Positions 676 to 64,000 of a stretch of DNA of 64,000 bases are shown here, one piece after another (the first letter of the stretch is position 1; the number at the start of each line of letters is the position of its first letter). A model generated the notes under the pieces. The model was not told the DNA's origin. It was given only the letters and a program-made list of their open reading frames with translations, and made no database searches. Both the position numbers and the translations under genes were made by a program. The DNA is from Zeus faber (taxonomy: Eukaryota; Chordata; Actinopteri; Zeiformes; Zeidae): contig CAUIJY010000101.1 of assembly GCA_960531495.1 (NCBI GenBank), positions 62,001 to 126,000 on the forward strand. The letters are read 5' to 3'.

Positions 676-870
676 TTGGTTGAGTACTGTATTGATGATC
701 CCGTCTACCCAGTTTGGGTAGCCTGGTATGTATTGGTGAGTACTTTTCCTATGTTCCCCCCTGGCCAGAAAGGGCAGTTTGGTATAGGGGACCAAAGGTA
801 ATGCACGGGCCGTCGCACGTTATCAAGATTCTCCAATCCCGTATTATGTTAGGTAGAGAGTTAGGTTCCT
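676..870 (+). repeat. Module S (unit head)
   Basis: About 195 bp beginning TTGGTTGAGTACTG. I count 41 S heads in the window, always in + orientation. It contains a perfect stem CTACCCA/TGGGTAG with loop GTT (705-721) and TTTGGT/ACCAAA (778-796). The macro-unit version has an imperfect middle stem around CTGGCC that is better paired in the 1500-bp family. A frame through S starts at TTG, and the differences between S copies include amino-acid changes, so I do not call a protein. Confidence 0.9.
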
Positions 871-2250
871 GTTCAAGTTGTTGCGGATGGTTAAGAACGT
901 TTTGTTTGTTTTTTGTTCTGGGTGTAAACGTGGTTAAATACACCTTGTTTGTTTTTGTTTCCAGTTGTTTATGGATGGTTAAGAACACCCTATTTGTTTT
1001 ATTTGGGTGTTCATTTGTTATGGGTTTAAGCGTGGTTAAATAAACCTTGTTTGTTTTTGTTTCAAGTTGTTACGAATGGTTAAGATCACCTTGTTTGTTT
1101 TTTTGGTTACGGGTTTAAGCGTGGTTAGGTACACCTTATTTGTTTCTGTTTCAAGTTTTTACGGATTGGTTCAGAACACCTTGTTTGTTCCTTATTACGG
1201 GTTTAAGCGTGGTTAAGTACACCTTGTTAGTTTCTTGTTTAAAGTTGTTACGGATGGTTAAGATCACCTTGTTTGTTTTTTTGGTTACGGGTTTAAGCGT
1301 GGTTAGGTACACCTTATTTGTTTCTGTTTCAAGTTTTTACGGATTGGTTCAGAACACCTTGTTTGTTCCTTATTACGGGTTTAAGCGTGGTTAAGTACAC
1401 CTTGTTAGTTTCTTGTTTAAAGTTGTTACGGATGGTTAAGATCACCTTGTTTGTTTTTTTGGTTACGGGTTTAAGCGTGGTTAGGTACACCTTATTTGTT
1501 TCTGTTTCAAGTTTTTACGGATTGGTTCAGAACACCTTGTTTGTTCCTTATTACGGGTTTAAGCGTGGTTAAGTACACCTTGTTAGTTTCTTGTTTAAAG
1601 TTGTTACGGATGGTTAAGATCACCTTGTTTGTTTTTTTGGTTACGGGTTTAAGCGTGGTTAGGTACACCTTATTTGTTTCTGTTTCAAGTTTTTACGGAT
1701 TGGTTCAGAACACCTTGTTTGTTCCTTATTACGGGTTTAAGCGTGGTTAAGTACACCTTGTTAGTTTCTTGTTTAAAGTTGTTACGGATGGTTAAGATCA
1801 CCTTGTTTGTTTTTTTGGTTACGGGTTTAAGCGTGGTTAGGTACACCTTATTTGTTTCTGTTTCAAGTTTTTACGGATTGGTTCAGAACACCTTGTTTGT
1901 TCCTTATTACGGGTTTAAGCGTGGTTAAGTACACCTTGTTAGTTTCTTGTTTAAAGTTGTTACGGATGGTTAAGATCACCTTGTTTGTTTTTTTGGTTAC
2001 GGGTTTAAGCGTGGTTAGGTACACCTTATTTGTTTCTGTTTCAAGTTTTTACGGATTGGTTCAGAACACCTTGTTTGTTCCTTATTACGGGTTTAAGCGT
2101 GGTTAAGTACACCTTGTTAGTTTCTTGTTTAAAGTTGTTACGGATGGTAAGAAAACCTTGTTTGTTTTTTATTACGAGTTTAAGCGTGGTTAAGTACACC
2201 TTATTGTTTTTTGATTCAAGTTGTTACGGATGGTTAAGCGCACCCTGTTT
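871..2250 (+). repeat. Module M: diverged monomers plus 178-bp satellite
   Basis: Leading diverged 44-bp monomers (about 871-1139) pass into 178-bp periods anchored at 1140, 1318, 1496, 1674, 1852 and 2030, then into diverged monomers to about 2250. The 178-bp unit is a four-monomer higher-order repeat. Periods look identical by eye. The monomer also occurs twice in every 1500/1518-bp unit, so it is an older shared element. Confidence 0.93.
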
Positions 2251-2430
2251 CTTCTTTCTCTGAATTTCCATATGATTACTTTTAGGAATTTAGGACACAT
2301 TCATCAGTAGTGTACCTCAGGATCATTGAGTGTTTCAGCCTTTTAAACAAACTATACACCCTCTCCTTGAGGCAGGCCACCTGGGTTTGATCAAGACCCT
2401 GGTGTGTGTCCCCCGGTCAATTGGTTTTAT
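2251..2430 (+). repeat. Module P (conserved block with palindrome)
   Basis: About 175-180 bp, nearly identical to the block at 22478-22652 of the 1500-bp unit and its 1518-bp counterpart. Includes a 27-bp interrupted palindrome at 2378-2404: arms CACC/GGTG, then GGG/CCC, then an inner TTTGATCAAG. It is the best conserved stretch outside S. No open reading frame of note. Confidence 0.88.
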
Positions 2431-2735
2431 TTAAAAAAATGTGTTCGTTGGATTTCGTTGCATTTGGGTACGACCTTTATACGTTGGTAGGATATTCTTT
2501 TTCTTAGACTTTGAGTTTTTTTTTTGGTTAGGTTCTGTCTTTGTCATTGGGTAGTTCTTACTATGGTCATTCGGATTTTGTTGAGTTTCGGGTACGGTCT
2601 TTCTTTGTCGGTAAGATATTTCTGTCCTAGGATTCTGTTGAGTTTGGGTAAGTTTGTATCACTATTTTTTCTTAAGGTGCCTCCGGTATTATTGGTTGGA
2701 CTTTGTTGAGCTTGGATACGTTGCCTTTTAATTTA
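2431..2735 (+). repeat. Module Q: diverged 57-66-bp monomers
   Basis: Several degenerate copies of a monomer with core TTTTGTTGAGTTTGGGTA, followed by a pyrimidine-rich stretch. The same monomer occurs four times in each 1500-bp unit. A T-run near 2515-2525 varies in length between macro-units and shifts frames, which argues against coding. Boundaries are approximate. Confidence 0.75.
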
Positions 2736-3700
2736 TCCCAGGTACATTTCTGCTGTTGTTAGACGAGATAGTCGAGTTTGGCTAAATTGAAATACCGTTG
2801 TTCTAACGTTATTCAAGTTGGTCGGCTTTTGGTTATTTTCTTGGGTAAGCTATCGTCTGTTTGATGATAGTTTGGTTACTTCGGTTATAATGGATAATAA
2901 GATCTGATTACGGGTATGTCTTGGGAGTAAGTATAAATTAGACCTAGTAGAGTAAGTGGTTACTGTTATCTCCTAGGTATTATTATACAGGTTGGGTTAA
3001 AGGATGGAGATAGGTAGTTAGTTCTAAAAGGTCTAGGTCCCGGTGCATCCACGGCCTGGTCCCTAAGTTTGGACCAGGGGATGAGGAAATAAGGGTGTGA
3101 AAATTTAAATTGCTGTAAAAACAGCATTCTACTTTTAAAGGAACAATTCCTGTGTCCCGTACACCGCACAACTCCAGGAATTGTCCAATATATCTATGTT
3201 TTTTTTAGTTTTACACCTAGAAACCTTGGATAACACTTACCCCAGCCAGGTCTTCATTATTTTATCACTTAAATTTCGTATAGGGTCTACTCGGGTTATA
3301 TCTTTCACCCTCCTGGTTCCTGGGATTTTATGTTTTTAATAATGTAGTTGGGGTCCTGAATATTATATTTAGAATTTCATTAAACGATTGGTGGCATATA
3401 AATATTTTTTCGTGCAATAAAATGCGTGAAGAAATTAAAATTAAAAGTACCCATGGTTCATAGCGGTTTTTTTCGGTAGGAACGGCCGCTACTTCCTGAA
3501 GGGGAGTCTCTAGCATGATGTTCATCCTCTGATTGGTCCTCTATAATTATCCCATAATTCCTCTATTTAATTAGTTGACTATGTTTTTGTATGTTAAATA
3601 ATTTTCAATAGCCTACTGAAGTTATTTTAACCAGAAAAAACATCGCGGAAGTGTTTCATTAAAGTGGGGATGTTGTAGGTTTTTTTTAAAAAAAACGGTA
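2736..3700. other. Non-coding segment found only in macro-units
   Basis: About 0.95 kb with no counterpart in the 1500/1518-bp units. I see no credible gene or tRNA; the only open frames are short minus-strand frames of 62-67 codons. It contains a hairpin cluster (3055-3184) and ends in T8A8 (3680-3695), immediately before the GC-rich island. Copies occur at 8992-9957, about 15175-16141 and about 21047-22003. Confidence 0.8.
3055..3184. other. Cluster of three perfect stem-loops
   Basis: Stem 1: CCTGGTCC/GGACCAGG, 3055-3062 with 3071-3078, loop 8 nt. Stem 2: TGCTGT/ACAGCA, 3111-3116 with 3121-3126, loop AAAA. Stem 3: ACAATTCCTG/CAGGAATTGT, 3143-3152 with 3175-3184, loop 22 nt. All are perfect and repeat in the other macro-units (about 9312, 15492 and 21364). 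Could be a structured RNA or DNA cruciforms; no family recognised. Confidence 0.6.
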
Positions 3701-3975
3701 CCATGAGCGATAGCGGTAGCGCTTGTAATGACATGACAGCGGGAAAACAAAATAATCTCCGGGTGGACAACTTCTGTCCAAAAAAATCCGGTCGACAGCG
3801 AGCAACTCGCCGCCGAGAAAAGCGGCCCTCAAAGAGAAGTAAAGGCAGTCCATCGGCATCGCGAGCGAAACTCGCGCCGCGATTAAAGTGGCACTCCATC
3901 ACTCTCGGTGGATCCGGCTGACTACACACACTACGCGTGGGGCTATACACTTGGGCACGGAGAACGCTCCGTGTT
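3696..3975. other. GC-rich island
   Basis: About 280 bp clearly richer in G+C and CpG than its surroundings, between a T8A8 tract and a long A/T-only stretch. Contains perfect hairpins TGGACA/TGTCCA (3764-3780), GCGAG/CTCGC with loop CAA (3798-3810), GCCGC/GCGGC (3809-3826), CGCGAG/CTCGCG with loop CGAAA (3860-3876) and CACGGAG/CTCCGTG with loop AACG (3956-3973). Absent from the 1500/1518-bp families. The composition contrast suggests a foreign or captured fragment (inference). Confidence 0.75.
3703..3921 (+). CDS. Candidate small basic protein, 72 aa (copy 1)
   Basis: I do not recognise this product. It is one of the few frames in the window that starts at ATG, with A at -3 (ACCATGA), a favourable eukaryotic start context, and it ends at TGA. 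The first ~20 residues are polar (Ser/Asp/Asn/Thr); residues about 29-50 are strongly basic with clustered Arg/Lys (RQRATRRREKRPSKRSK), resembling a nuclear-localisation or nucleic-acid-binding stretch; the end is Trp-His then Gly/Ser. No signal peptide or membrane segment. Copies at 9960 and 16145 differ only by Lys to Gln in the PK(K/Q)SG segment. The opposite strand is also open, as expected of GC-rich DNA, so this may be chance, an exon or a gene remnant. Copy 4 was truncated just before it. Confidence 0.22.
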   Translation: MSDSGSACNDMTAGKQNNLRVDNFCPKKSGRQRATRRREKRPSKRSKGSPSASRAKLAPRLKWHSITLGGSG

Positions 3976-4140
3976 GGAATGTCCGTAGTTATTATATAAA
4001 TATATAAATAAATAGAAAAAACTAATAAATAAATACATAAATAATTTAGAAAAAATCTATAAATATATAAAAAAATATATATAAAAAATATAATAAAAAC
4101 ATAATAAAAAAATATATATGAAAAAAATATATATATATAA
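3976..4140. repeat. AT-only low-complexity tract
   Basis: Nearly pure A/T of the TAAATA/ATATAT type, starting about 3990, just after the CACGGAG hairpin. Length differs slightly in copy 3 (about 16430-16580). Such tracts unwind easily and can act as replication-origin or matrix-attachment sequence, but nothing here shows function. Spurious isoleucine/tyrosine/phenylalanine-rich frames cross it. Confidence 0.8.
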
Positions 4141-4257
4141 AAACAAACCTTCCCACATAACTATTCATTTTAACTACATCTGTAGTAATTAGAGATTTTA
4201 GGGTTGGGGAAAGGGGTGGGGTTTTTTTTGTTACGTTTTTTTTATATATAAAAAAGA
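4141..4257. other. Short spacer
   Basis: Mixed spacer with a small inverted repeat ACTACA/TGTAGT (4173-4186) and G- and T-runs leading into the degenerate telomeric block. No gene seen. Confidence 0.6.
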
Positions 4258-5019
4258 TTGGGTAACAGTGATGGTTTTAGAGCTAAGGTTAGGTTTAGGG
4301 TTAGGTCTAAGGTTAGGCTCAGGGCTAGGTTTAGGGTTAGGTTTAGGGTTAGGTTTAGGGTTAGATTGAGGGTTAAGTTTAGGGTTAGATTGAGGGTTAA
4401 GTTTAGGGTTGGATTGAGGGTTAAGTTTAGGGTTAGGTTTAGGGTTAGGTTAAGCGCTAGGGTTAGGTTTAGGGTCGGGTTTAGGGCTAGGTCTTAGGGT
4501 TAACGTTAGGGTTAGGTTTAGAACCAGGGCTAGGGTTAGTTTTAGAATTAGGTTTAGGGCTAGGTTAGGGTTAGGGTTAGGGTTAGGGGTTAGGGGTTAG
4601 GGTTAGGGTTAGGGTGGGGAATATGGTTAGGGTAGGGGTTGGGGTTAGGTTTAGATTCAGAGTTAGGTTGGGGTTAGTTAAGCTTAAGGTTGGGGTTGGG
4701 GTTAGGGTTAGGGTTAGGGTTGGGAATGTGTTGAGGGTAGGGGTTAAGTTTAGGGTTTAGGTCCGGATTCAGGATTGGGTAAGGGTTAATAGGGTTAGGG
4801 TTAGGGTTAGGGTTAGGGTTAGGAATGTGTTAAGGGTAGGGGTTAGGGTTAGGGTTAGGTTTGGATTCAAGGACTCGTGTTAAGGGTTAGGGTTAGGGTT
4901 TAGGGTTTGGGTTAGGGTTAGGGTTAGGGTTTGGGTTAGGGTTAGGGTTGGGAATATGTTAAGGGTTAGGGTTAGGGTTAGGGTTAGGGTTAGGGTTGGG
5001 AATGTGTTGAGGGTTTACC
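4258..5019 (+). repeat. Module D: degenerate telomeric repeats (expanded)
   Basis: About 760 bp of TTAGGG variants (TTTAGGG, TTGAGGG, TTAAGG, CTAGGG, GGGTTGGGG) interspersed with short perfect runs and a recurrent spacer of the type GGGAATGTGTTGAGGG. The counterpart in each 1500-bp unit is about 240 bp. Frames rich in Arg-Val-Arg-Phe are hexamer translations. In copy 3 the block is about 30 bp shorter, by loss of hexamer-like pieces. Confidence 0.92.
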
Positions 5020-6291
5020 AAGTATATTGGGATAGACTCCGGGTTACGGTTAGTTTGTTTGTTATGAAGATTAATTCATTATAAGGTTTATTTTTAGAAG
5101 GAGCAAGAGGGAGGTAGGAGGGAGGTAGAGGGAAGGAGAGCCGTCTGTTCGGACTGCATTCTCCTCCTGCCTGTTCGGGCTGTTCTCTACCGTCCCAACT
5201 CTCTCATTTTCATGAGAGAAAGGGAAGAGAGTGAAAAAAAGGTTTGTGAGTTAAATTGTTTGGGTTATTTTGTTCGGGCATAAATTCTAATTGGTCCTAG
5301 GTGGTAGTGGGTTATATTAATCCGGTAATGTTATATCAAGTATATTGGGATAGATACCGGGTTACGGTTAGTTCGTTTGTTATGAAGATTAATTCATTAT
5401 AAGGTTTATTTTTAGAAGGAGCAAGAGGGAGGTAGGCGGGAGGTAGAGGGAAGGAGAGCCGTCTGTTCGGACTGCATTCTCCTCCTGCCTGTTCGGGCTG
5501 TTCTCTACCGTCCCAACTCTCTCATTTTCATGAGAGAAAGGGAAGAGAGTGAAAAAAAGGTTTGTGAGTTAAATTGTTTGGGTTATTTTGTTCGGGCATA
5601 AATTCTAATTGGTCCTAGGTGGTAGTGGGTTATATTAATCCGGTAATGTTTTATTAAGTATATTGGGATAGACTCCGGGTTACGGTTAGTTTGTTTGTTA
5701 TGAAGATTAATTCATTATAAGGTTTATTTTTAGAAGGAGCAAGAGGGAGGTAGGAGGGAGGTAGAGGGAAGGAGAGCCGTCTGTTCGGACTGCATTCTCC
5801 TCCTGCCTGTTCGGGCTGTTCTCTACCGTCCCAACTCTCTCATTTTCATGAGAGAAAGGGAAGAGAGTGAAAAAAAGGTTTGTGAGTTAAATTGTTTGGT
5901 TTATTTTGTTCGGGCGTAAATTCTAATTGGTCCTAGGTGGTAGTGGGTTATATTAATCCGGTAATGTTATATCAAGTATATTGGGATAGACTCCGGGTTA
6001 CGGTTAGTTTGTTTGTTATGAAGATTAATTCATTATAAGGTTTATTTTTAGAAGGAGCAAGAGGGAGGTAGGAGGGAGGTAGAGGGAAGGAGAGCCGTCT
6101 GTTCGGACTGCATTCTCCTCCTGCCTGTTCGGGCTGTTCTCTACCGTCCCAACTCTCTCATTTTCATGAGAGAAAGGGAAGAGAGTGAAAAAAAGGTTTG
6201 TGAGTTAAATTGTTTGGGTTATTTTGTTCGGGCGTAAATTCTAATTGGTCCTAGGTGGTAGTGGGTTATATTAATCCGGAAATGTTATATC
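5020..6291 (+). repeat. 4 x 318-bp tandem repeat (expanded module H)
   Basis: Starts of AAGTATATTGGG at 5020, 5338, 5656, 5974 and 6292 give four exact 318-bp periods. Each contains a purine-rich mirror repeat (GAGGGAGG-TA-GGAGGGAG at 5107-5124) followed by three hairpins. The core is homologous to 23150-23300 of the 1500-bp unit, where it is single-copy. A 15-17-bp stub follows (6292-6308) before an S head. Confidence 0.93.
5143..5219. other. Triple hairpin of module H (318-bp family)
   Basis: Hairpin 1: GTCT-GTTC-GGAC (5143-5154). Hairpin 2: GCCT-GTTC-GGGC (5169-5180), the same loop with one changed pair. Hairpin 3: TCTCTCAT-TTTC-ATGAGAGA (5200-5219), 8 perfect pairs. In the 1500/1518-bp families hairpin 3 closes with G-C instead of T-A, keeping the stem. 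Candidate structured RNA or DNA element; no known family recognised. Confidence 0.6.
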
Positions 6292-6308
6292 AAGTATATT
6301 GGGATACG

Positions 6309-6730
6309 TTGGTTGAGTACTGTATTGATGATCCCGTCTACCCAGTTTGGGTAGCCTGGTATGTATTGGTGAGTACTTTTCCTATGTTCCCCCCTGGCCA
6401 GCAAGGGCAGTTTGGTATAGGGGACCAAAGGTAATGCACGGGCCGTCGCACGTTATCAAGATTCTCCAATCCCGTATTATGTTAGGTAGAGAGTTAGGTT
6501 CCTGTTCAAGTTGTTGCGGATGGTTAAGAACGTTTTGTTTGTTTTTTGTTCTGGGTTTAACCGTGGCAAAATACACCTTGTTGGTTTTTGTTTCAAGTTG
6601 TTATGGATGGTTAAGAACACCCTATTTGTTTTTTTTGGGTGTTCATTTGTTATGGGTTTAAGCGTGGTTAAATAAACCTTATTTGTTTTTGTTCCAAGTT
6701 GTTACGAATGGTTAAGATCACCTTGTTTGA
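6309..6730 (+). repeat. S head plus truncated M monomers
   Basis: An S module preceded directly by a broken 318-bp repeat (GGGATA then CG), with no telomeric hexamers. It continues into about 200 bp of 44-bp monomers and is cut inside a monomer at about 6730. Copies at 12566-12987 and 18720-19141. Confidence 0.88.
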
Positions 6731-6931
6731 TTTGTTGAGTACTGTATTGATGATTCCGTTTACCCAGTTGGGTATCCTGGCATGTATTGGTGAGTACTAT
6801 TCCTATGTTCCCCCCTGGCCAGCATGGGCAGTTTGGTATAGGGGACCAAAGGTAATGCACGGTCTTGGTAAGATAATACATATAATGGGTTATAAGGAGA
6901 ATCTGCTTTCCGAGGCACAGGCTAGGTTAGG
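6731..6931 (+). repeat. S head fused directly to tail E
   Basis: A diverged S (start TTTGTTGAG, 1-bp deletion in the stem loop, several substitutions) runs to AATGCACGGTCTTGG and then joins the last ~70 bp of a unit (TAAGATAATACATATAATGG onward). It is effectively a unit lacking its interior. Copies at 12988-13188 and 19142-19342. Confidence 0.87.
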
Positions 6932-9900
6932 TTGGTTGAGTACTGTATTGATGATCCCGTCTACCCAGTTTGGGTAGCCTGGTATGTATTGGTGAGTACT
7001 TTTCCTATGTTCCCCCCTGGCCAGAAAGGGCAGTTTGGTATAGGGGACCAAAGGTAATGCACGGGCCGTCGCACGTTATCAAGATTCTCCAATCCCGTAT
7101 TATGTTAGGTAGAGAGTTAGGTTCCTGTTCAAGTTGTTGCGGATGGTTAAGAACGTTTTGTTTGTTTTTTGTTCTGGGTGTAAACGTGGTTAAATACACC
7201 TTGTTTGTTTTTGTTTCCAGTTGTTTATGGATGGTTAAGAACACCCTATTTGTTTTATTTGGGTGTTCATTTGTTATGGGTTTAAGCGTGGTTAAATAAA
7301 CCTTGTTTGTTTTTGTTTCAAGTTGTTACGAATGGTTAAGATCACCTTGTTTGTTTTTTTGGTTACGGGTTTAAGCGTGGTTAGGTACACCTTATTTGTT
7401 TCTGTTTCAAGTTTTTACGGATTGGTTCAGAACACCTTGTTTGTTCCTTATTACGGGTTTAAGCGTGGTTAAGTACACCTTGTTAGTTTCTTGTTTAAAG
7501 TTGTTACGGATGGTTAAGATCACCTTGTTTGTTTTTTTGGTTACGGGTTTAAGCGTGGTTAGGTACACCTTATTTGTTTCTGTTTCAAGTTTTTACGGAT
7601 TGGTTCAGAACACCTTGTTTGTTCCTTATTACGGGTTTAAGCGTGGTTAAGTACACCTTGTTAGTTTCTTGTTTAAAGTTGTTACGGATGGTTAAGATCA
7701 CCTTGTTTGTTTTTTTGGTTACGGGTTTAAGCGTGGTTAGGTACACCTTATTTGTTTCTGTTTCAAGTTTTTACGGATTGGTTCAGAACACCTTGTTTGT
7801 TCCTTATTACGGGTTTAAGCGTGGTTAAGTACACCTTGTTAGTTTCTTGTTTAAAGTTGTTACGGATGGTTAAGATCACCTTGTTTGTTTTTTTGGTTAC
7901 GGGTTTAAGCGTGGTTAGGTACACCTTATTTGTTTCTGTTTCAAGTTTTTACGGATTGGTTCAGAACACCTTGTTTGTTCCTTATTACGGGTTTAAGCGT
8001 GGTTAAGTACACCTTGTTAGTTTCTTGTTTAAAGTTGTTACGGATGGTTAAGATCACCTTGTTTGTTTTTTTGGTTACGGGTTTAAGCGTGGTTAGGTAC
8101 ACCTTATTTGTTTCTGTTTCAAGTTTTTACGGATTGGTTCAGAACACCTTGTTTGTTCCTTATTACGGGTTTAAGCGTGGTTAAGTACACCTTGTTAGTT
8201 TCTTGTTTAAAGTTGTTACGGATGGTTAAGATCACCTTGTTTGTTTTTTTGGTTACGGGTTTAAGCGTGGTTAGGTACACCTTATTTGTTTCTGTTTCAA
8301 GTTTTTACGGATTGGTTCAGAACACCTTGTTTGTTCCTTATTACGGGTTTAAGCGTGGTTAAGTACACCTTGTTAGTTTCTTGTTTAAAGTTGTTACGGA
8401 TGGTAAGAAAACCTTGTTTGTTTTTTATTACGAGTTTAAGCGTGGTTAAGTACACCTTATTGTTTTTTGATTCAAGTTGTTACGGATGGTTAAGCGCACC
8501 CTGTTTCTTCTTTCTCTGAATTTCCATATGATTACTTTTAGGAATTTAGGACACATTCATCAGTAGTGTACCTCAGGATCATTGAGTGTTTCAGCCTTTT
8601 AAACAAACTATACACCCTCTCCTTGAGGCAGGCCACCTGGGTTTGATCAAGACCCTGGTGTGTGTCCCCCGGTCAATTGGTTTTATTTAAAAAAATGTGT
8701 TCGTTGGATTTCGTTGCATTTGGGTACGACCTTTATACGTTGGTAGGATATTCTTTTTCTTAGACTTTGAGTTTTTTTTTTTGGTTAGGTTCTGTCTTTG
8801 TCATTGGGTAGTTCTTACTATGGTCATTCGGATTTTGTTGAGTTTCGGGTACGGTCTTTCTTTGTCGGTAAGATATTTCTGTCCTAGGATTCTGTTGAGT
8901 TTGGGTAAGTTTGTATCACTATTTTTTCTTAAGGTGCCTCCGGTATTATTGGTTGGACTTTGTTGAGCTTGGATACGTTGCCTTTTAATTTATCCCAGGT
9001 ACATTTCTGCTGTTGTTAGACGAGATAGTCGAGTTTGGCTAAATTGAAATACCGTTGTTCTAACGTTATTCAAGTTGGTCGGCTTTTGGTTATTTTCTTG
9101 GGTAAGCTATCGTCTGTTTGATGATAGTTTGGTTACTTCGGTTATAATGGATAATAAGATCTGATTACGGGTATGTCTTGGGAGTAAGTATAAATTAGAC
9201 CTAGTAGAGTAAGTGGTTACTGTTATCTCCTAGGTATTATTATACAGGTTGGGTTAAAGGATGGAGATAGGTAGTTAGTTCTAAAAGGTCTAGGTCCCGG
9301 TGCATCCACGGCCTGGTCCCTAAGTTTGGACCAGGGGATGAGGAAATAAGGGTGTGAAAATTTAAATTGCTGTAAAAACAGCATTCTACTTTTAAAGGAA
9401 CAATTCCTGTGTCCCGTACACCGCACAACTCCAGGAATTGTCCAATATATCTATGTTTTTTTTAGTTTTACACCTAGAAACCTTGGATAACACTTACCCC
9501 AGCCAGGTCTTCATTATTTTATCACTTAAATTTCGTATAGGGTCTACTCGGGTTATATCTTTCACCCTCCTGGTTCCTGGGATTTTATGTTTTTAATAAT
9601 GTAGTTGGGGTCCTGAATATTATATTTAGAATTTCATTAAACGATTGGTGGCATATAAATATTTTTTCGTGCAATAAAATGCGTGAAGAAATTAAAATTA
9701 AAAGTACCCATGGTTCATAGCGGTTTTTTTCGGTAGGAACGGCCGCTACTTCCTGAAGGGGAGTCTCTAGCATGATGTTCATCCTCTGATTGGTCCTCTA
9801 TAATTATCCCATAATTCCTCTATTTAATTAGTTGACTATGTTTTTGTATGTTAAATAATTTTCAATAGCCTACTGAAGTTATTTTAACCAGAAAAAACAT

Positions 9901-12900: not shown

Positions 12901-13188
12901 CATTTGTTATGGGTTTAAGCGTGGTTAAATAAACCTTATTTGTTTTTGTTCCAAGTTGTTACGAATGGTTAAGATCACCTTGTTTGATTTGTTGAGTACT
13001 GTATTGATGATTCCGTTTACCCAGTTGGGTATCCTGGCATGTATTGGTGAGTACTATTCCTATGTTCCCCCCTGGCCAGCATGGGCAGTTTGGTATAGGG
13101 GACCAAAGGTAATGCACGGTCTTGGTAAGATAATACATATAATGGGTTATAAGGAGAATCTGCTTTCCGAGGCACAGGCTAGGTTAGG
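6932..13188 (+). repeat. Macro-unit copy 2 (about 6.26 kb)
   Basis: Nearly identical to copy 1. S 6932-7126; 178-bp satellite with six anchors 7396-8286; P 8507-8686 (palindrome from 8634); Q and unique segment 8687-9956; GC island 9957-10232; AT tract about 10247-10400; D 10515-11276; 318-bp x4 11277-12548; S+M fragment 12566-12987; S/E fusion 12988-13188. No genes beyond the small candidate frame. Confidence 0.93.
9960..10178 (+). CDS. Candidate small basic protein, 72 aa (copy 2)
   Basis: Second copy of the unrecognised 72-residue frame at 3703. ATG in the same ACCATGA context and the same TGA stop. The only difference from copy 1 is Gln for Lys in the PK(K/Q)SG segment. One change among three copies gives no power to test for selection. 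Confidence 0.22.
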   Translation: MSDSGSACNDMTAGKQNNLRVDNFCPKQSGRQRATRRREKRPSKRSKGSPSASRAKLAPRLKWHSITLGGSG

Positions 13189-13470
13189 TTGGTTGAGTAC
13201 TGTATTGATGATCCCGTCTACCCAGTTTGGGTAGCCTGGTATGTATTGGTGAGTACTTTTCCTATGTTCCCCCCTGGCCAGAAAGGGCAGTTTGGTATAG
13301 GGGACCAAAGGTAATGCACGGGCCGTCGCACGTTATCAAGATTCTCCAATCCCGTATTATGTTAGGTAGAGAGTTAGGTTCCTGTTCAAGTTGTTGCGGA
13401 TGGTTAAGAACGTTTTGTTTGTTTTTTGTTCTGGGTGTAAACGTGGTTAAATACACCTTGTTTGTTTTTG
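13189..13470 (+). repeat. Extra 282-bp S+M fragment
   Basis: An S head with about 90 bp of M monomers, cut after TTTTTGTT, where the next S head begins at 13471. It equals the first 282 bp of the following macro-unit, so it looks like a partial head inserted or left by template switching, with GTT as shared bases at the join. Confidence 0.9.
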
Positions 13471-47593: not shown

Positions 47594-47760
47594 GGTTAGG
47601 GTTAGGGTTAGGGTTAGGGTTAGGGTTAGGGTTAGGGTTAGGGTTAGGGGTTAGGGTTAGGGTTAGGGTTAGGGTTAGGGTTAGGGGTTAGGGTTAGGGG
47701 TTAGGGTTAGGGTTAGGGTTAGGGTTAGGGTTAGGGTTAGGGTTAGGGTTAGGGTTAGGG
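47461..47760 (+). repeat. Interstitial telomeric tract 4
   Basis: About 300 bp of TTAGGG with one TTTAGGG (near 47571) and three TTAGGGG variants. Same right junction (GGGTGGGTGAG) as tract 3. Separates the 1500-bp family on the left from the 1518-bp family on the right. Confidence 0.97.
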
Positions 47761-48942
47761 TGGGTGAGTACTGTATTGATGATCCCGTCTACCCAGTTTG
47801 GGTAGCCTGGTATGTATTGGTGAGTACTTTTCCTATGTTCCCCCCTGGCCAGCATGGTCAGTTTGGTATAGGGGACCAAAGGTAATGCACGGGCCGTCGC
47901 ACGTTATCAAGATTCTCCAATCCCGTATTATGTTAGGTAGAGTGTCAGGTTCATGTTTTGTAGTTATCCCATTTGGGTTAAAGAATATAGGCATATTCTG
48001 GCTTCAAGGAGAAGTCCCCTAACCAGGGTTTAAGGTGACTTACATTTAAAAGGATGCTTGTTTCCTCTTAGTAGTATAGGTCCAGAGTAATTTGTCTTAT
48101 ATTTGTTGTTTAGATGCTTTATTAGTTGTTGGTAGACGTAGTTGTTTTCTTTAAGAGTGGTTAAGAACACCTTATTTGTTTTTTGTTTCAAGTTGTTAAG
48201 AGTGGTTAAGAACACCTTATTTGTTATTTCTCCGCATTTCTATATGATTACTTTTAGAAATTTAGGACACATTCATCAGTAGTGTACCTCAGGATCATTG
48301 AGTGTTTCAGCCTTTTAAACAAACTATACACCCTCTCCTTGAGGCAGGCCACCTGGGCTTCGTCAAGACCCTGGTGTGTGTCCCCCGGTCAATTGGTTTA
48401 TTTTAGGAAATATTTCTACTCTTGTTGGTTGGATTTTGATGAGTTTGGGTACGACCTCTATTTGTCCGTGGGATATCTATGTTCTTAGATTTAGTTGAGT
48501 ATAGGTAAGTTCCGTCTCTGTTTGTCATTGGGAAACTTCTTCCATTTTCAATTGGATTTTGTAGAGTTTGGGTACGACCTCTATTTGTCAGTGGGATCTT
48601 TTTTTTCCTTGGATTTTGTTGAGTTTGGGTACGACCTCTATTCGTCAATGGTTAGGGTTAGGATTTGGTTTTAGGGTTAGGATAGGGGTTAGGTTTAGGG
48701 TTAGGTTTGGGGTTAGGTTTAGGGCTAGGTCTTAGGGTTAACGTTAGGGTTAGGGTTAGGTTTAGAACCAGGGCTAGGCTTAGGTTTAGGGTTAGGCTAA
48801 GGGTTAGGTTTAGGGTTAAGTCTTAGGGTTAACGTTAGGGTTAGGTTTAGAGCTAGAGTTAGGGTTAGGGTTAGGGTCAGGGTTTTAGGATTAGGGATGG
48901 AGAGGAGAGGGAAGTGGAGGAGAAGTATATGTAGAAGGGAGG
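47761..48942 (+). repeat. Shortened 1518-family unit (about 1183 bp)
   Basis: Lacks the last 335 bp (triple hairpin and tail E). It is cut in the centre of the polypurine mirror repeat and joined to the next S head through shared AGGT. Carries private variants (for example TGTTATTTCTCCGC, and GGGATGGAG in D/H) and shares TGTCAGG with the following unit only. Confidence 0.92.
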
Positions 48943-54900: not shown

Positions 54901-57900
54901 GCGCCATGTCAATGCCTTTAAGAGGAGGAAAGAAAGGGGAGAGAGATTTGGTTAGATAATACATATAATGGGTTATAAGGAGAATCTGCTTTCCGAGGCA
55001 CAGGCTAGATTAGGTTGGGTGAGTACTGTATTGATGATCCCGTCTACCCAGTTTGGGTAGCCTGGTATGTATTGGTGAGTACTTTTCCTATGTTCCCCCC
55101 TGGCCAGCATGGTCAGTTTGGTATAGGGGACCAAAGGTAATGCACGGGCCGTCGCACGTTATCAAGATTCTCCAATCCCGTATTATGTTAGGTAGAGTGT
55201 TAGGTTCATGTTTTGTAGTTATCCCATTTGGGTTAAAGAATATAGGCATATTCTGGCTTCAAGGAGAAGTCCCCTAACCAGGGTTTAAGGTGACTTACAT
55301 TTAAAAGGATGCTTGTTTCCTCTTAGTAGTATAGGTCCAGAGTAATTTGTCTTATATTTGTTGTTTAGATGCTTTATTAGTTGTTGGTAGACGTAGTTGT
55401 TTTCTTTAAGAGTGGTTAAGAACACCTTATTTGTTTTTTGTTTCAAGTTGTTAAGAGTGGTTAAGAACACCTTATTTGTTCTTTCTCCACATTTCTATAT
55501 GATTACTTTTAGAAATTTAGGACACATTCATCAGTAGTGTACCTCAGGATCATTGAGTGTTTCAGCCTTTTAAACAAACTATACACCCTCTCCTTGAGGC
55601 AGGCCACCTGGGCTTCGTCAAGACCCTGGTGTGTGTCCCCCGGTCAATTGGTTTATTTTAGGAAATATTTCTACTCTTGTTGGTTGGATTTTGATGAGTT
55701 TGGGTACGACCTCTATTTGTCCGTGGGATATCTATGTTCTTAGATTTAGTTGAGTATAGGTAAGTTCCGTCTCTGTTTGTCATTGGGAAACTTCTTCCAT
55801 TTTCAATTGGATTTTGTAGAGTTTGGGTACGACCTCTATTTGTCAGTGGGATATTTTTGTTCTTGGATTTTGTTGAGTTTGGGTACGACCTCTATTCGTC
55901 AATGGTTAGGGTTAGGATTTGGTTTTAGGGTTAGGATAGGGGTTAGGTTTAGGGTTAGGTTTGGGGTTAGGTTTAGGGCTAGGTCTTAGGGTTAACGTTA
56001 GGGTTAGGGTTAGGTTTAGAACCAGGGCTAGGCTTAGGTTTAGGGTTAGGCTAAGGGTTAGGTTTAGGGTTAAGTCTTAGGGTTAACGTTAGGGTTAGGT
56101 TTAGAGCTAGAGTTAGGGTTAGGGTTAGGGTCAGGGTTTTAGGATTAGGGTTGGAGAGGAGAGGGAAGTGGAGGAGAAGTATATGTAGAAGGGAGGTAGA
56201 GGGAAGGAGAGCCGTCTGTTCGGACTGCATTCTCCTCCTGCCTGTTCGGGCTATTCTCTACCGTCCCAGCTCTCTCAGTTTCCTGAGAGAAGGGGAAGAG
56301 AGTGAGAAAAAGAATGAAAAAAGAGAAAAAAAATTGTAAGCTAAGTTATTTTGTATAGTTGTTAATTTATGAGAATAGACTCTAATCAATAGTTGGAAGT
56401 TGTTGTACACCTTATCTTGCGCCATGTCAATGCCTTTAAGAGGAGGAAAGAAAGGGGAGAGAGATTTGGTTAGATAATACATATAATGGGTTATAAGGAG
56501 AATCTGCTTTCCGAGGCACAGGCTAGATTAGGTTGGGTGAGTACTGTATTGATGATCCCGTCTACCCAGTTTGGGTAGCCTGGTATGTATTGGTGAGTAC
56601 TTTTCCTATGTTCCCCCCTGGCCAGCATGGTCAGTTTGGTATAGGGGACCAAAGGTAATGCACGGGCCGTCGCACGTTATCAAGATTCTCCAATCCCGTA
56701 TTATGTTAGGTAGAGTGTTAGGTTCATGTTTTGTAGTTATCCCATTTGGGTTAAAGAATATAGGCATATTCTGGCTTCAAGGAGAAGTCCCCTAACCAGG
56801 GTTTAAGGTGACTTACATTTAAAAGGATGCTTGTTTCCTCTTAGTAGTATAGGTCCAGAGTAATTTGTCTTATATTTGTTGTTTAGATGCTTTATTAGTT
56901 GTTGGTAGACGTAGTTGTTTTCTTTAAGAGTGGTTAAGAACACCTTATTTGTTTTTTGTTTCAAGTTGTTAAGAGTGGTTAAGAACACCTTATTTGTTCT
57001 TTCTCCACATTTCTATATGATTACTTTTAGAAATTTAGGACACATTCATCAGTAGTGTACCTCAGGATCATTGAGTGTTTCAGCCTTTTAAACAAACTAT
57101 ACACCCTCTCCTTGAGGCAGGCCACCTGGGCTTCGTCAAGACCCTGGTGTGTGTCCCCCGGTCAATTGGTTTATTTTAGGAAATATTTCTACTCTTGTTG
57201 GTTGGATTTTGATGAGTTTGGGTACGACCTCTATTTGTCCGTGGGATATCTATGTTCTTAGATTTAGTTGAGTATAGGTAAGTTCCGTCTCTGTTTGTCA
57301 TTGGGAAACTTCTTCCATTTTCAATTGGATTTTGTAGAGTTTGGGTACGACCTCTATTTGTCAGTGGGATATTTTTGTTCTTGGATTTTGTTGAGTTTGG
57401 GTACGACCTCTATTCGTCAATGGTTAGGGTTAGGATTTGGTTTTAGGGTTAGGATAGGGGTTAGGTTTAGGGTTAGGTTTGGGGTTAGGTTTAGGGCTAG
57501 GTCTTAGGGTTAACGTTAGGGTTAGGGTTAGGTTTAGAACCAGGGCTAGGCTTAGGTTTAGGGTTAGGCTAAGGGTTAGGTTTAGGGTTAAGTCTTAGGG
57601 TTAACGTTAGGGTTAGGTTTAGAGCTAGAGTTAGGGTTAGGGTTAGGGTCAGGGTTTTAGGATTAGGGTTGGAGAGGAGAGGGAAGTGGAGGAGAAGTAT
57701 ATGTAGAAGGGAGGTAGAGGGAAGGAGAGCCGTCTGTTCGGACTGCATTCTCCTCCTGCCTGTTCGGGCTATTCTCTACCGTCCCAGCTCTCTCAGTTTC
57801 CTGAGAGAAGGGGAAGAGAGTGAGAAAAAGAATGAAAAAAGAGAAAAAAAATTGTAAGCTAAGTTATTTTGTATAGTTGTTAATTTATGAGAATAGACTC

Positions 57901-60900
57901 TAATCAATAGTTGGAAGTTGTTGTACACCTTATCTTGCGCCATGTCAATGCCTTTAAGAGGAGGAAAGAAAGGGGAGAGAGATTTGGTTAGATAATACAT
58001 ATAATGGGTTATAAGGAGAATCTGCTTTCCGAGGCACAGGCTAGATTAGGTTGGGTGAGTACTGTATTGATGATCCCGTCTACCCAGTTTGGGTAGCCTG
58101 GTATGTATTGGTGAGTACTTTTCCTATGTTCCCCCCTGGCCAGCATGGTCAGTTTGGTATAGGGGACCAAAGGTAATGCACGGGCCGTCGCACGTTATCA
58201 AGATTCTCCAATCCCGTATTATGTTAGGTAGAGTGTTAGGTTCATGTTTTGTAGTTATCCCATTTGGGTTAAAGAATATAGGCATATTCTGGCTTCAAGG
58301 AGAAGTCCCCTAACCAGGGTTTAAGGTGACTTACATTTAAAAGGATGCTTGTTTCCTCTTAGTAGTATAGGTCCAGAGTAATTTGTCTTATATTTGTTGT
58401 TTAGATGCTTTATTAGTTGTTGGTAGACGTAGTTGTTTTCTTTAAGAGTGGTTAAGAACACCTTATTTGTTTTTTGTTTCAAGTTGTTAAGAGTGGTTAA
58501 GAACACCTTATTTGTTCTTTCTCCACATTTCTATATGATTACTTTTAGAAATTTAGGACACATTCATCAGTAGTGTACCTCAGGATCATTGAGTGTTTCA
58601 GCCTTTTAAACAAACTATACACCCTCTCCTTGAGGCAGGCCACCTGGGCTTCGTCAAGACCCTGGTGTGTGTCCCCCGGTCAATTGGTTTATTTTAGGAA
58701 ATATTTCTACTCTTGTTGGTTGGATTTTGATGAGTTTGGGTACGACCTCTATTTGTCCGTGGGATATCTATGTTCTTAGATTTAGTTGAGTATAGGTAAG
58801 TTCCGTCTCTGTTTGTCATTGGGAAACTTCTTCCATTTTCAATTGGATTTTGTAGAGTTTGGGTACGACCTCTATTTGTCAGTGGGATATTTTTGTTCTT
58901 GGATTTTGTTGAGTTTGGGTACGACCTCTATTCGTCAATGGTTAGGGTTAGGATTTGGTTTTAGGGTTAGGATAGGGGTTAGGTTTAGGGTTAGGTTTGG
59001 GGTTAGGTTTAGGGCTAGGTCTTAGGGTTAACGTTAGGGTTAGGGTTAGGTTTAGAACCAGGGCTAGGCTTAGGTTTAGGGTTAGGCTAAGGGTTAGGTT
59101 TAGGGTTAAGTCTTAGGGTTAACGTTAGGGTTAGGTTTAGAGCTAGAGTTAGGGTTAGGGTTAGGGTCAGGGTTTTAGGATTAGGGTTGGAGAGGAGAGG
59201 GAAGTGGAGGAGAAGTATATGTAGAAGGGAGGTAGAGGGAAGGAGAGCCGTCTGTTCGGACTGCATTCTCCTCCTGCCTGTTCGGGCTATTCTCTACCGT
59301 CCCAGCTCTCTCAGTTTCCTGAGAGAAGGGGAAGAGAGTGAGAAAAAGAATGAAAAAAGAGAAAAAAAATTGTAAGCTAAGTTATTTTGTATAGTTGTTA
59401 ATTTATGAGAATAGACTCTAATCAATAGTTGGAAGTTGTTGTACACCTTATCTTGCGCCATGTCAATGCCTTTAAGAGGAGGAAAGAAAGGGGAGAGAGA
59501 TTTGGTTAGATAATACATATAATGGGTTATAAGGAGAATCTGCTTTCCGAGGCACAGGCTAGATTAGGTTGGGTGAGTACTGTATTGATGATCCCGTCTA
59601 CCCAGTTTGGGTAGCCTGGTATGTATTGGTGAGTACTTTTCCTATGTTCCCCCCTGGCCAGCATGGTCAGTTTGGTATAGGGGACCAAAGGTAATGCACG
59701 GGCCGTCGCACGTTATCAAGATTCTCCAATCCCGTATTATGTTAGGTAGAGTGTTAGGTTCATGTTTTGTAGTTATCCCATTTGGGTTAAAGAATATAGG
59801 CATATTCTGGCTTCAAGGAGAAGTCCCCTAACCAGGGTTTAAGGTGACTTACATTTAAAAGGATGCTTGTTTCCTCTTAGTAGTATAGGTCCAGAGTAAT
59901 TTGTCTTATATTTGTTGTTTAGATGCTTTATTAGTTGTTGGTAGACGTAGTTGTTTTCTTTAAGAGTGGTTAAGAACACCTTATTTGTTTTTTGTTTCAA
60001 GTTGTTAAGAGTGGTTAAGAACACCTTATTTGTTCTTTCTCCACATTTCTATATGATTACTTTTAGAAATTTAGGACACATTCATCAGTAGTGTACCTCA
60101 GGATCATTGAGTGTTTCAGCCTTTTAAACAAACTATACACCCTCTCCTTGAGGCAGGCCACCTGGGCTTCGTCAAGACCCTGGTGTGTGTCCCCCGGTCA
60201 ATTGGTTTATTTTAGGAAATATTTCTACTCTTGTTGGTTGGATTTTGATGAGTTTGGGTACGACCTCTATTTGTCCGTGGGATATCTATGTTCTTAGATT
60301 TAGTTGAGTATAGGTAAGTTCCGTCTCTGTTTGTCATTGGGAAACTTCTTCCATTTTCAATTGGATTTTGTAGAGTTTGGGTACGACCTCTATTTGTCAG
60401 TGGGATATTTTTGTTCTTGGATTTTGTTGAGTTTGGGTACGACCTCTATTCGTCAATGGTTAGGGTTAGGATTTGGTTTTAGGGTTAGGATAGGGGTTAG
60501 GTTTAGGGTTAGGTTTGGGGTTAGGTTTAGGGCTAGGTCTTAGGGTTAACGTTAGGGTTAGGGTTAGGTTTAGAACCAGGGCTAGGCTTAGGTTTAGGGT
60601 TAGGCTAAGGGTTAGGTTTAGGGTTAAGTCTTAGGGTTAACGTTAGGGTTAGGTTTAGAGCTAGAGTTAGGGTTAGGGTTAGGGTCAGGGTTTTAGGATT
60701 AGGGTTGGAGAGGAGAGGGAAGTGGAGGAGAAGTATATGTAGAAGGGAGGTAGAGGGAAGGAGAGCCGTCTGTTCGGACTGCATTCTCCTCCTGCCTGTT
60801 CGGGCTATTCTCTACCGTCCCAGCTCTCTCAGTTTCCTGAGAGAAGGGGAAGAGAGTGAGAAAAAGAATGAAAAAAGAGAAAAAAAATTGTAAGCTAAGT

Positions 60901-61086
60901 TATTTTGTATAGTTGTTAATTTATGAGAATAGACTCTAATCAATAGTTGGAAGTTGTTGTACACCTTATCTTGCGCCATGTCAATGCCTTTAAGAGGAGG
61001 AAAGAAAGGGGAGAGAGATTTGGTTAGATAATACATATAATGGGTTATAAGGAGAATCTGCTTTCCGAGGCACAGGCTAGATTAGG
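48943..61086 (+). repeat. 1518-bp tandem array (eight full units)
   Basis: Unit starts 48943, 50461, 51979, 53497, 55015, 56533, 58051 and 59569. Differs from the 1500-bp family by scattered substitutions and small indels, e.g. 6 bp after the S/N region and a longer A-run in H that breaks the 111-codon minus-strand frame. The first unit keeps TGTCAGG and a C near 49232 unlike later units. The P palindrome keeps its arms with loop CGTC. No genes. Confidence 0.96.
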
Positions 61087-61307
61087 TTGGGTGAGTACTG
61101 TATTGATGATCCCGTCTACCCAGTTTGGGTAGCCTGGTATGTATTGGTGAGTACTTTTCCTATGTTCCCCCCTGGCCAGCATGGTCAGTTTGGTATAGGG
61201 GACCAAAGGTAATGCACGGGCCGTCGCACGTTATCAAGATTCTCCAATCCCGTATTATGTTAGGTAGAGTGTTAGGTTCATGTTTTGTAGTTATCCCATT
61301 TGGGTTA
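61087..61307 (+). repeat. Truncated 1518-bp unit (221 bp)
   Basis: S plus the start of N. Departs from the array sequence right after a native GGGTTA (61302-61307), immediately past the CCCA/TGGG inverted repeat (61295-61304), into TTAGGG repeats. Confidence 0.95.
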
Positions 61308-61624
61308 GGGTTAGGGTTAGGGTTAGGGTTAGGGTTAGGGTTAGGGGTTAGGGTTAGGGTTAGGGTTAGGGTTAGGGTTAGGGTTAGGGTTAGGGTTAGG
61401 GTTAGGGTTAGGGGTTAGGGGTTAGGGTTAGGGTTAGGGTTAGGGTTAGGGTTAGGGGTTAGGGGTTAGGGTTAGGGTTAGGGTTAGGGTTAGGGTTAGG
61501 GGTTAGGGGTTAGGGGTTAGGGGTTAGGGTTAGGGTTAGGGTTAGGGTTAGGGTTAGGGGTTAGGGGTTAGGGGTTAGGGTTAGGGTTAGGGTTAGGGTT
61601 AGGGGTTAGGGGTTAGGGTTAGGG

Positions 61625-61665
<41 letters not shown>

Positions 61666-61723
61666 GGTTAGGGTTAGGGTTAGTGTAATGGTTTAGAGGT
61701 TAGGGTTAGGGTTAGGGTTAGGG

Positions 61724-61764
<41 letters not shown>

Positions 61765-61772
61765 GGTTAGGG

Positions 61773-61850
<78 letters not shown>

Positions 61851-61852
61851 GG

Positions 61853-61893
<41 letters not shown>

Positions 61894-61895
61894 GG

Positions 61896-61936
<41 letters not shown>

Positions 61937-61955
61937 GGTTAGGGTTAGGGTTAGG
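61302..61955 (+). repeat. Interstitial telomeric tract 5 (longest, about 650 bp)
   Basis: TTAGGG repeats with a polarised pattern: TTAGGGG variants fill the left half (to about 61620), TTTAGGG variants occur in the right half at about 37-50-bp spacing, and a degenerate stretch near 61682-61700 lies near the division. Right junction TTAGGTTGGGTGAG to S. Confidence 0.97.
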
Positions 61956-64000
61956 TTGGGTGAGTACTGTATTGATGATCCCGTCTACCCAGTTTGGGTA
62001 GCCTGGTATGTATTGGTGAGTACTTTTCCTATGTTCCCCCCTGGCCAGCATGGTCAGTTTGGTATAGGGGACCAAAGGTAATGCACGGGCCGTCGCACGT
62101 TATCAAGATTCTCCAATCCCGTATTATGTTAGGTAGAGTGTTAGGTTCATGTTTTGTAGTTATCCCATTTGGGTTAAAGAATATAGGCATATTCTGGCTT
62201 CAAGGAGAAGTCCCCTAACCAGGGTTTAAGGTGACTTACATTTAAAAGGATGCTTGTTTCCTCTTAGTAGTATAGGTCCAGAGTAATTTGTCTTATATTT
62301 GTTGTTTAGATGCTTTATTAGTTGTTGGTAGACGTAGTTGTTTTCTTTAAGAGTGGTTAAGAACACCTTATTTGTTTTTTGTTTCAAGTTGTTAAGAGTG
62401 GTTAAGAACACCTTATTTGTTCTTTCTCCACATTTCTATATGATTACTTTTAGAAATTTAGGACACATTCATCAGTAGTGTACCTCAGGATCATTGAGTG
62501 TTTCAGCCTTTTAAACAAACTATACACCCTCTCCTTGAGGCAGGCCACCTGGGCTTCGTCAAGACCCTGGTGTGTGTCCCCCGGTCAATTGGTTTATTTT
62601 AGGAAATATTTCTACTCTTGTTGGTTGGATTTTGATGAGTTTGGGTACGACCTCTATTTGTCCGTGGGATATCTATGTTCTTAGATTTAGTTGAGTATAG
62701 GTAAGTTCCGTCTCTGTTTGTCATTGGGAAACTTCTTCCATTTTCAATTGGATTTTGTAGAGTTTGGGTACGACCTCTATTTGTCAGTGGGATATTTTTG
62801 TTCTTGGATTTTGTTGAGTTTGGGTACGACCTCTATTCGTCAATGGTTAGGGTTAGGATTTGGTTTTAGGGTTAGGATAGGGGTTAGGTTTAGGGTTAGG
62901 TTTGGGGTTAGGTTTAGGGCTAGGTCTTAGGGTTAACGTTAGGGTTAGGGTTAGGTTTAGAACCAGGGCTAGGCTTAGGTTTAGGGTTAGGCTAAGGGTT
63001 AGGTTTAGGGTTAAGTCTTAGGGTTAACGTTAGGGTTAGGGTTAGGTTTAGAGCTAGAGTTAGGGTTAGGGTCAGGGTTTTAGGATTAGGGTTGGAGAGG
63101 AGAGGGAAGTGGAGGAGAAGTATATGTAGAAGGGAGGTAGAGGGAAGGAGAGCCGTCTGTTCGGACTGCATTCTCCTCCTGCCTGTTCGGGCTATTCTCT
63201 ACCGTCCCAGCTCTCTCAGTTTCCTGAGAGAAGGGGAAGAGAGTGAGAAAAAGAATGAAAAAAGAGAAAAAAAATTGTAAGCTAAGTTATTTTGTATAGT
63301 TGTTAATTTATGAGAATAGACTCTAATCAATAGTTGGAAGTTGTTGTACACCTTATCTTGCGCCATGTCAATGCCTTTAAGAGGAGGAAAGAAAGGGGAG
63401 AGAGATTTGGTTAGATAATACATATAATGGGTTATAAGGAGAATCTGCTTTCCGAGGCACAGGCTAGATTAGGTTGGGTGAGTACTGTATTGATGATCCC
63501 GTCTACCCAGTTTGGGTAGCCTGGTATGTATTGGTGAGTACTTTTCCTATGTTCCCCCCTGGCCAGCATGGTCAGTTTGGTATAGGGGACCAAAGGTAAT
63601 GCACGGGCCGTCGCACGTTATCAAGATTCTCCAATCCCGTATTATGTTAGGTAGAGTGTTAGGTTCATGTTTTGTAGTTATCCCATTTGGGTTAAAGAAT
63701 ATAGGCATATTCTGGCTTCAAGGAGAAGTCCCCTAACCAGGGTTTAAGGTGACTTACATTTAAAAGGATGCTTGTTTCCTCTTAGTAGTATAGGTCCAGA
63801 GTAATTTGTCTTATATTTGTTGTTTAGATGCTTTATTAGTTGTTGGTAGACGTAGTTGTTTTCTTTAAGAGTGGTTAAGAACACCTTATTTGTTTTTTGT
63901 TTCAAGTTGTTAAGAGTGGTTAAGAACACCTTATTTGTTCTTTCTCCACATTTCTATATGATTACTTTTAGAAATTTAGGACACATTCATCAGTAGTGTA
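61956..64000 (+). repeat. 1518-bp units after tract 5 (one full, one partial)
   Basis: Full unit 61956-63473 and the first 527 bp of the next. In the full unit one hexamer in D has moved relative to earlier units (an extra GGGTTA before the TTTAGAGC segment and one fewer after it) with total length kept at 1518. No genes. The array continues beyond the window. Confidence 0.95.

Follow-up and report, generated by a model that had tools for sequence, protein, structure and literature searches.

Repeat arrays that restart at one boundary, mostly behind interstitial telomere tracts, in a 64-kb stretch of Zeus faber DNA

Introduction

Tandem repeats accompanied by interstitial telomere tracts have been described at the chromosome ends of fungi, yeasts and Caenorhabditis elegans. 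Here we analyze a 64-kb stretch of Zeus faber DNA (assembly GCA_960531495.1, contig CAUIJY010000101.1, positions 62,001 to 126,000 of the forward strand; “the window” below), in which tandem units begin at a segment that we call S and normally end in a tail that we call E, and in which arrays of such units are repeatedly cut off and start again at S, in most cases behind TTAGGG repeats. The pattern is close to that of known yeast and fungal chromosome ends and represents no new kind of system; what the window adds is a long ordered record and a unit that we could not match. Yeast telomere repeats are of a different sequence from TTAGGG.

In foxtail strains of Pyricularia oryzae, interstitial telomeres of 6 to 34 repeats bound a 4-kb subtelomeric tandem repeat, some copies of which are truncated; its amplification was linked by the authors to spontaneous failure of telomeres (PMC8381367). 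Upon deletion of telomerase, a telomere band at the position of this repeat was amplified in Arcadia2, as seen on blots, and in strain 60-3 the reads showed amplification of MoTeR arrays (PMC8381367). The window is similar in belonging to a TTAGGG organism, in its variously truncated tandem subtelomeric repeats and in having interstitial tracts of variable length as bounds; it is dissimilar in that the Pyricularia repeat has direct-repeat borders and a predicted reverse transcriptase, whereas the window units, of 1.5 and 6.3 kb, have no recognized coding sequence (PMC8381367). MoTeR arrays themselves run head to tail, the TTAGGG stretches between elements ranging from half a repeat to over 20 repeats; one such array repeats identical truncations, which were ascribed to D-loop copying, and rolling-circle copying was suggested for another (PMC7367193). 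MoTeR and FoTeR elements share with the units here a 5' side directed toward the tip, a 3' side adjoining telomere repeats and truncated copies, but the autonomous elements encode a reverse transcriptase, and neither a reverse transcriptase nor a retrotransposon tail was seen in the window (PMC7367193, PMC12857005).

Roughly one in two Y' elements of Saccharomyces cerevisiae adjoins an interstitial tract on its centromere side; these tracts measure 20 to ~500 bp, with a maximum of 957 bp (PMC13177704). Tandem subtelomeric units, centromere-side tracts of variable length and amplification by recombination are thus common to Y' and the window; Y' elements, unlike the window units, carry open reading frames and autonomously replicating sequences, and the likeness is one of architecture, not of sequence (PMC13177704). 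As in Y' and Pyricularia, telomere sequence bounds the units in the window, at five of six array starts (four tracts and one pair of hexamers). Roll-and-spread in Kluyveromyces lactis accounts for homogeneous tandem copies by a circular template, with subsequent spreading by break-induced replication (PMC3486848). That process differs from ours in being described in telomerase or stn1 mutants and mainly for telomere repeats, whereas circles in the window are only putative (PMC3486848). Finally, the TALT of C. elegans is a unique block that lies between telomere-like tracts of a single orientation and is arranged in tandem at chromosome ends; it was recruited from an internal region in telomerase-deleted survivors (PMC4595603).

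Results

S heads (TGAGTACTGTATT) occur 41 times in the window, all on the plus strand, and the tandem units accordingly have a single orientation; the reverse complement of TGAGTACT has zero occurrences in the 64 kb. The exact form TTGG(G/T)TGAG is found in 36 of the 41. The others are three diverged heads (S', at 6731, 12988 and 19142; TTTGTTGAG) and two, at 36364 and 47760, in which the first T is replaced by G (GTGGGTGAG). The wording of the original prediction, in which heads open with TTGG(G/T), is therefore exact for the 36 but not for these five. A normal E tail is the left neighbor of 28 heads, and the 13 without one fall into eight further kinds, so that the nine kinds of left junction that had been claimed are borne out over the 41 heads. 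Five of the non-E contexts have one head each (676, behind a tract, 13471, 22018, 48943 and 61956), and the rest are multiple (three heads of the 6309 kind, three of the 6731 kind and two at 36364/47760). Each of the 6309 and 6731 kinds is a single event present in three copies, which sit in a 6.26-kb repeat. The flank at 48943, formerly described as a mirror repeat, is in fact the purine-rich segment found ordinarily in a unit, which here breaks off at unit base 1183.

The boundary can also be located independently of S. In a self-BLAST of the window, from which alignments of at least 150 bp and at least 85 % identity were kept, left starts formed 157 clusters. Thirty-eight of these (626 starts) lie at S heads and account for 38 of the 41; the three S' heads give none. 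The junctions at 676, 6309, 13471, 22018, 36364, 47760, 48943 and 61956 are all among the start clusters, with 33-37 starts each, and the fixed boundary predicted at the start of S is thereby confirmed within the window. Away from S, telomere tracts hold 29 clusters, the 178-bp satellite 24 and the 318-bp repeats 12, with 54 more in other places. The strongest among these last, at 6865, 13122 and 19276 (25 starts each), mark the point at which S' meets an E tail; those next in strength, at 872 and 7128 (18 starts each) and at 4790 and 11047 (8 each), reflect internal differences between the C unit and the A and B units, and the remainder are weak, with 1-4 starts each. There are strong clusters inside satellite ranges as well, such as 2179 (19 starts) and 13667 (18), where C and A/B units part; none of this sort was counted as a junction. 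Minus-strand self-matches or inverted joins were absent from the self-BLAST at E 1e-10. Were right breakpoints uniform over 1500 bp, eight further junctions would fall within 3 bp of the first with p ~3e-22, a value that assumes all nine junctions to be independent and takes in S', whose boundary is blurred.

There are six array starts in the window (676, 22018, 36364, 47760, 48943 and 61956), every one of them at S (Table 1). Four follow TTAGGG tracts, with lengths of 114, 252, 302 and 654 bp, and one, at 22018, follows two hexamers. The sixth, at 48943, has neither, the preceding unit and S being joined across a 3-nucleotide AGG overlap. The right ends of the arrays, by contrast with their starts, are scattered. 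They lie at ~564 in the satellite, at 21996 in a T/A run, and at 36114, 47460, 48942 and 61307, which correspond to unit bases 597 (for both 36114 and 47460), 1183 and 221; the last truncation falls on a native GGGTTA. The type of unit switches from C to A at 22018 and from A to B-like at 47760, and changes slightly at 48943, across which 1175 of 1182 aligned bases are identical. With such changes of unit type, the templates would have come from elsewhere. S-first starts, scattered truncations, tracts between blocks, single orientation and changes of unit type are thus all properties of the assembled sequence.

Two of the starts may not be separate. The blocks at 36364 and 47760 have the truncation base and the seam base in common, and for this reason we count them once: they are probably a single event copied by recombination, with the tract changed afterward, which leaves five independent array starts. 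The tracts before them, of 252 and 302 bp, differ in variant pattern as well as in length. The 654-bp tract is itself heterogeneous, its proximal half containing 14 TTAGGGG and one TTTAGGG and its distal half none and five (Fisher p 0.0004, although slippage in the tract makes the variant counts non-independent). The near-perfect tracts all read TTAGGG on the plus strand, and because of this the chromosome end would lie to the right of the window.

Table 1. Repeat blocks, telomere tracts and related features of the window
Position	Strand	Feature	Details
1..564	+	Episode 0, distal end of C-type array	Cut inside 178-bp satellite
562..675	+	Interstitial telomere tract	18 TTAGGG + TTAGG, zero variant repeats
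676..21996	+	Episode 1, C array	6257-bp higher-order unit; cut at T/A run
6309..6730	+	Fossil S-first stub in C unit	After broken 318-bp monomer; identical copies at 12566 and 18720
6731..6864	+	Diverged S'	Preceded by broken satellite monomer; recurs at 12988 and 19142
6865..6931	+	E tail joined to S'	Recurs at 13122 and 19276
13189..13754	+	282-bp tandem duplication	100 % matches; second copy begins at S (13471)
22002..22017	+	Two telomere hexamers (GGGTTAGGGTTAGG)	Separate S from broken T8A7 end
22018..36114	+	Episode 2, A array	9 full 1500-bp units + stub to unit base 597
23518..23592	+	Example S head	Predicted nested hairpin
24403..24639	+	Example N block	Decayed telomere-like tract within unit
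36114..36363	+	Interstitial telomere tract	Two TTAGGGG variants
36364..47460	+	Episode 3, A array	7 full units + stub, also to unit base 597
47460..47759	+	Interstitial telomere tract	Variant pattern unlike that of 36114 tract
47760..48942	+	Episode 4, single B-like unit	Broken at unit base 1183
48943..61307	+	Episode 5, B array	8 full 1518-bp units + stub to unit base 221
61302..61955	+	Interstitial telomere tract	654 bp; halves with different variants (TTAGGGG, then TTTAGGG)
61956..64000	+	Episode 6, B array	Continues beyond window end

Units were compared by cutting the window at S heads. Within the C array, the heads joined to E or to a tract are those at 676, 6932, 13189 and 19343. The 16 full A units (1500 bp) extend over two arrays, and 14 of them are identical; one differs at the seam base only, and one, at 40864-42363, is the only A unit with an internal single-nucleotide polymorphism (unit position 768, 0-based). 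Among nine full B units (1518 bp), seven are identical, one differs only in a shifted GTTAGG within N, and one, the unit at 48943, is a two-base variant. This first B unit (48943-50460) carries C at unit positions 186 and 290 (0-based), where the next seven carry T and A. The C at position 186 is also present in the truncated unit just before 48943, as if copying had begun on a different template. Unit copy numbers may be wrong in the assembly; the junctions are less likely to be so.

The original prediction attributed the choice of S to a telomere-like seed, TTAGGTTGGG, at the E/S join. We compared this join with the other telomere-like sites of at least 5 nucleotides in units A, B and C, counting the join once. 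The telomere match that ends at the S boundary is 5 nucleotides long in A and B and 7 in C. In A, 21 of the 28 sites are longer, and the figures for B and C are 22 of 31 and 27 of 145; shorter ones number zero in A and B, where 5 nucleotides is the cut-off, and 102 in C. The join is thus tied for the poorest match in A and B. N, a decayed telomere-like block within the unit, has matches that reach 18, 20 and 36 nucleotides, and no junction in the window uses it; no tract runs into N. Among the listed telomere-like runs of at least 24 nucleotides, four of the five above 100 bp lead into S, and the remaining one, which forms the first half of the 654-bp tract, leads into the second half. If sites were chosen evenly, the four independent telomere-ended starts would all be at S with p ~3e-7 (2.5e-7 with the join counted at both unit ends). 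Because longer sites exist and N goes unused, the short seed alone is not enough to explain the choice of S and, as stated, the proposal is not supported. The broader idea that broken or telomere-tailed ends were extended rightward, that is, distally, beginning at S, is supported, and the register of TTAGG relative to S is identical in all five telomeric junctions (four of them independent). We favor a donor with a real telomere tract before S as a better explanation of the choice than the seed.

Discussion

The window reads as six rounds of truncation followed by S-first re-extension, usually with telomere addition between the two. We propose, with a probability of roughly 0.6, that this subtelomere was built by repeated loss of the end and recombinational repair, in which new blocks came from donors carrying S behind a tract. 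In each round, the array would be trimmed back to an arbitrary point, and in most rounds the stump would acquire telomere repeats, probably through telomerase. Later, an end that had lost protection could recombine with another subtelomere or with a circle having S immediately after a telomere tract, and outward copying by break-induced replication would yield a new block beginning at S. Multiplication within arrays could follow by rolling-circle copying or unequal exchange, either of which would account for the near-perfect identity of array copies. A donor with a long perfect tract before S would outcompete N, and every round would leave further tract-S sites behind. Yeast Y' and Pyricularia arrays offer parallels, and the like architecture of the Pyricularia strains counts in favor of this proposal. 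The order of events would be a C array cut at 564, then a tract; C cut at 21996, then hexamers; A cut at 36114 and A cut at 47460, each followed by a tract; a B-like unit cut at 48942, with the AGG join; and a B array cut at 61307, a tract and a further B array. The two halves of the 654-bp tract fit a recipient tract fused to a donor tract before S, with the statistics weakened by slippage. Older S-first events are frozen inside the C unit (6309 and 6731) and at 13471. That telomerase, break-induced replication and circles were the actors, and that the donor bore S behind a tract, we infer from this arrangement.

Several observations weigh against this proposal or qualify it. At 48943, 6309, 6731 and 13471, S follows non-telomeric ends, with no tract and with 0-3 bases in common; exchange between tracts does not predict these junctions. 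They could be due either to microhomology-mediated copying that landed at S, or to S being a physical or template end, and they therefore keep retrotransposition and capture of ends alive as rivals. The 6865, 13122 and 19276 clusters, copies of one S'-E join, are the sole strong array-level start not at S, and N is followed by R or 318-type sequence, never by S. If N is an old tract, an older extension began without S. The claim that extension always starts with S is accordingly good for all six array starts but not for the 6865 join, where E is the right partner, nor, should N be an old tract, for the sequence after it. Further, a single circle did not make the whole B array unchanged, since its first unit differs from the next seven at two bases, and with 36364 and 47760 probably representing one copied event, the record consists of five independent starts rather than six.

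Of the alternatives, two make S the end of an RNA. On the minus strand, the units have a fixed 3' end toward the centromere, at S, and variable 5' truncation toward the tip, and the CCTAA at that end is indistinguishable from telomere sequence. The segment from S to E could be a non-autonomous telomeric retrotransposon of the type that lacks long terminal repeats; retrotransposons of this type were suggested from the start as the alternative. Its RNA, ending at S (...CTCACCCAACCTAA), would pair with an exposed TTAGG 3' end and be reverse-transcribed outward; later breakage would trim the 5' (distal) side, and recombination would amplify the arrays. Such an element would explain why the boundary is the same at tract and non-tract ends, even where 0-3 bases are shared. 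Its head-to-tail geometry and truncated copies, with 5' ends toward the tip, are those of MoTeR and FoTeR; at 36364, the mismatch in the first base might derive from a primer, and a hairpin is predicted for the S head. The geometry, then, fits, but a reverse transcriptase or other recognizable coding sequence does not appear in the window: the longest listed open reading frame is 177 amino acids, and the three translations tested gave zero Pfam matches. Neither poly(A) nor target-site duplications were noticed by eye. Moreover, most units within arrays are full-length and identical, unlike independently truncated insertions, and the units contain satellite, 318-bp repeats and decayed telomere blocks. 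We regard this explanation as unlikely, though worth keeping in mind, and do not file S-E under MoTeR/FoTeR-type elements, because no reverse transcriptase was seen with it. It is rather less likely still that S is a true template end in a more general sense, with telomerase or a host reverse transcriptase copying a minus-strand RNA that ends at S directly onto exposed 3' ends, whether telomeric or not. This would explain both the joining of S after 0-3 shared bases and the neglect of the better-matching N. If true, a non-coding element lacking its own reverse transcriptase would cap broken chromosomes beside TTAGGG telomeres.

The remaining alternatives require no RNA. In the seed model, each E/S join within an array offers the short TTAGGTTGGG for invasion by bare ends, be they broken or telomeric, and it is in keeping with this that TTAGG directly precedes S in one register at 5/5 telomeric junctions and that AGG is common to both sides at 48943. 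Yet the longer sites in all three units, extending to 36 nucleotides in N, and the low probability of hitting S four times under even choice make the model, in our estimation, improbable. Capture by end joining supposes that fragile tract-S sites break and that broken chromosome ends are then ligated to the distal fragments, which begin with S. Breakage of interstitial telomeres is known, and the MoTeR study inferred products of end joining (PMC7367193). Capture would also explain S after non-telomeric ends at 48943, 6309 and 13471, but random joining should mix the telomere registers before S, whereas the register is the same in all five junctions, and we consider it very unlikely. Least probable of all is an assembly artefact made up of collapsed or duplicated repeats and chimeric joins. 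Many units are exactly identical and the same truncation base recurs at 36114 and 47460, as an artefact might produce; on the other hand, the tracts of the repeated block differ in length and variant pattern, and chimeras would not place junctions on one base after distinct flanks.

If repeated end loss with repair from tract-S donors is the right explanation, the 64-kb stretch is an ordered record in which about six cycles of loss and rescue of the end can be read, their breakpoints resolved to the base. In that case, the passing over of longer telomere-like sites and the use of one boundary each time make the identity of the donor end testable.

Other Features of the Window

Several other candidate origins of the S boundary were considered. 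The predicted nested hairpin of the S head begins a few bases from the boundary, and its TACCCA/TGGGTA core is present in 41/41 heads. When the A unit was scanned in 75-nucleotide windows, S ranked 4th of 100 on the plus strand, where windows in N outscored it, and 2nd of 100 on the minus strand; over 123-125 nucleotides, the fold had z-scores of -1.4 to -1.9 as RNA and of -1.0 and -2.6 as DNA. The signal is modest and N is higher on the plus strand, and the hairpin therefore proves nothing as a cause of the boundary. A self-cleaving ribozyme at S was rejected: a hammerhead-like TGATGA is present, but the GAAA part of the consensus is absent from A and B heads. A Helitron was likewise rejected, since the minus-strand joins read CTAA|TC in A and B but CTAA|CC in C, the hairpin lies some 34 nucleotides from the end as judged by eye, and there is no open reading frame of the size of a Rep/helicase. 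Exact matches to the S-head pattern numbered 0 in viral_contigs and genome_contigs, which hold viral and prokaryote sequence. Scanning the window with the bacterial code gave no transfer RNA, and Rfam gave nothing at gathering score across it; at E up to 5, five weak sub-threshold matches were returned for 21900-23560.

Three minor observations concern composition. The otherwise AT-rich C unit has a patch of 54 % GC, at 3703-3921 and in its C copies, with a basic open reading frame of 72 amino acids (MSDSGSACNDM...) and no Pfam match. The plus strand has G>C and T>A in all 32 two-kb bins, in telomeric parts and beyond. Within the tract at 61302-61955, clusters of TTAGGGG in the proximal half are spaced 31-37 bp apart, after a first gap of 67, and in the distal half the intervals from one TTTAGGG to the next are 37-49 bp; an odd TTAGTGTAATGGTTTAGAGG separates the two series. 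This near-regular spacing could be the product of small-circle copying or of sequencing error.

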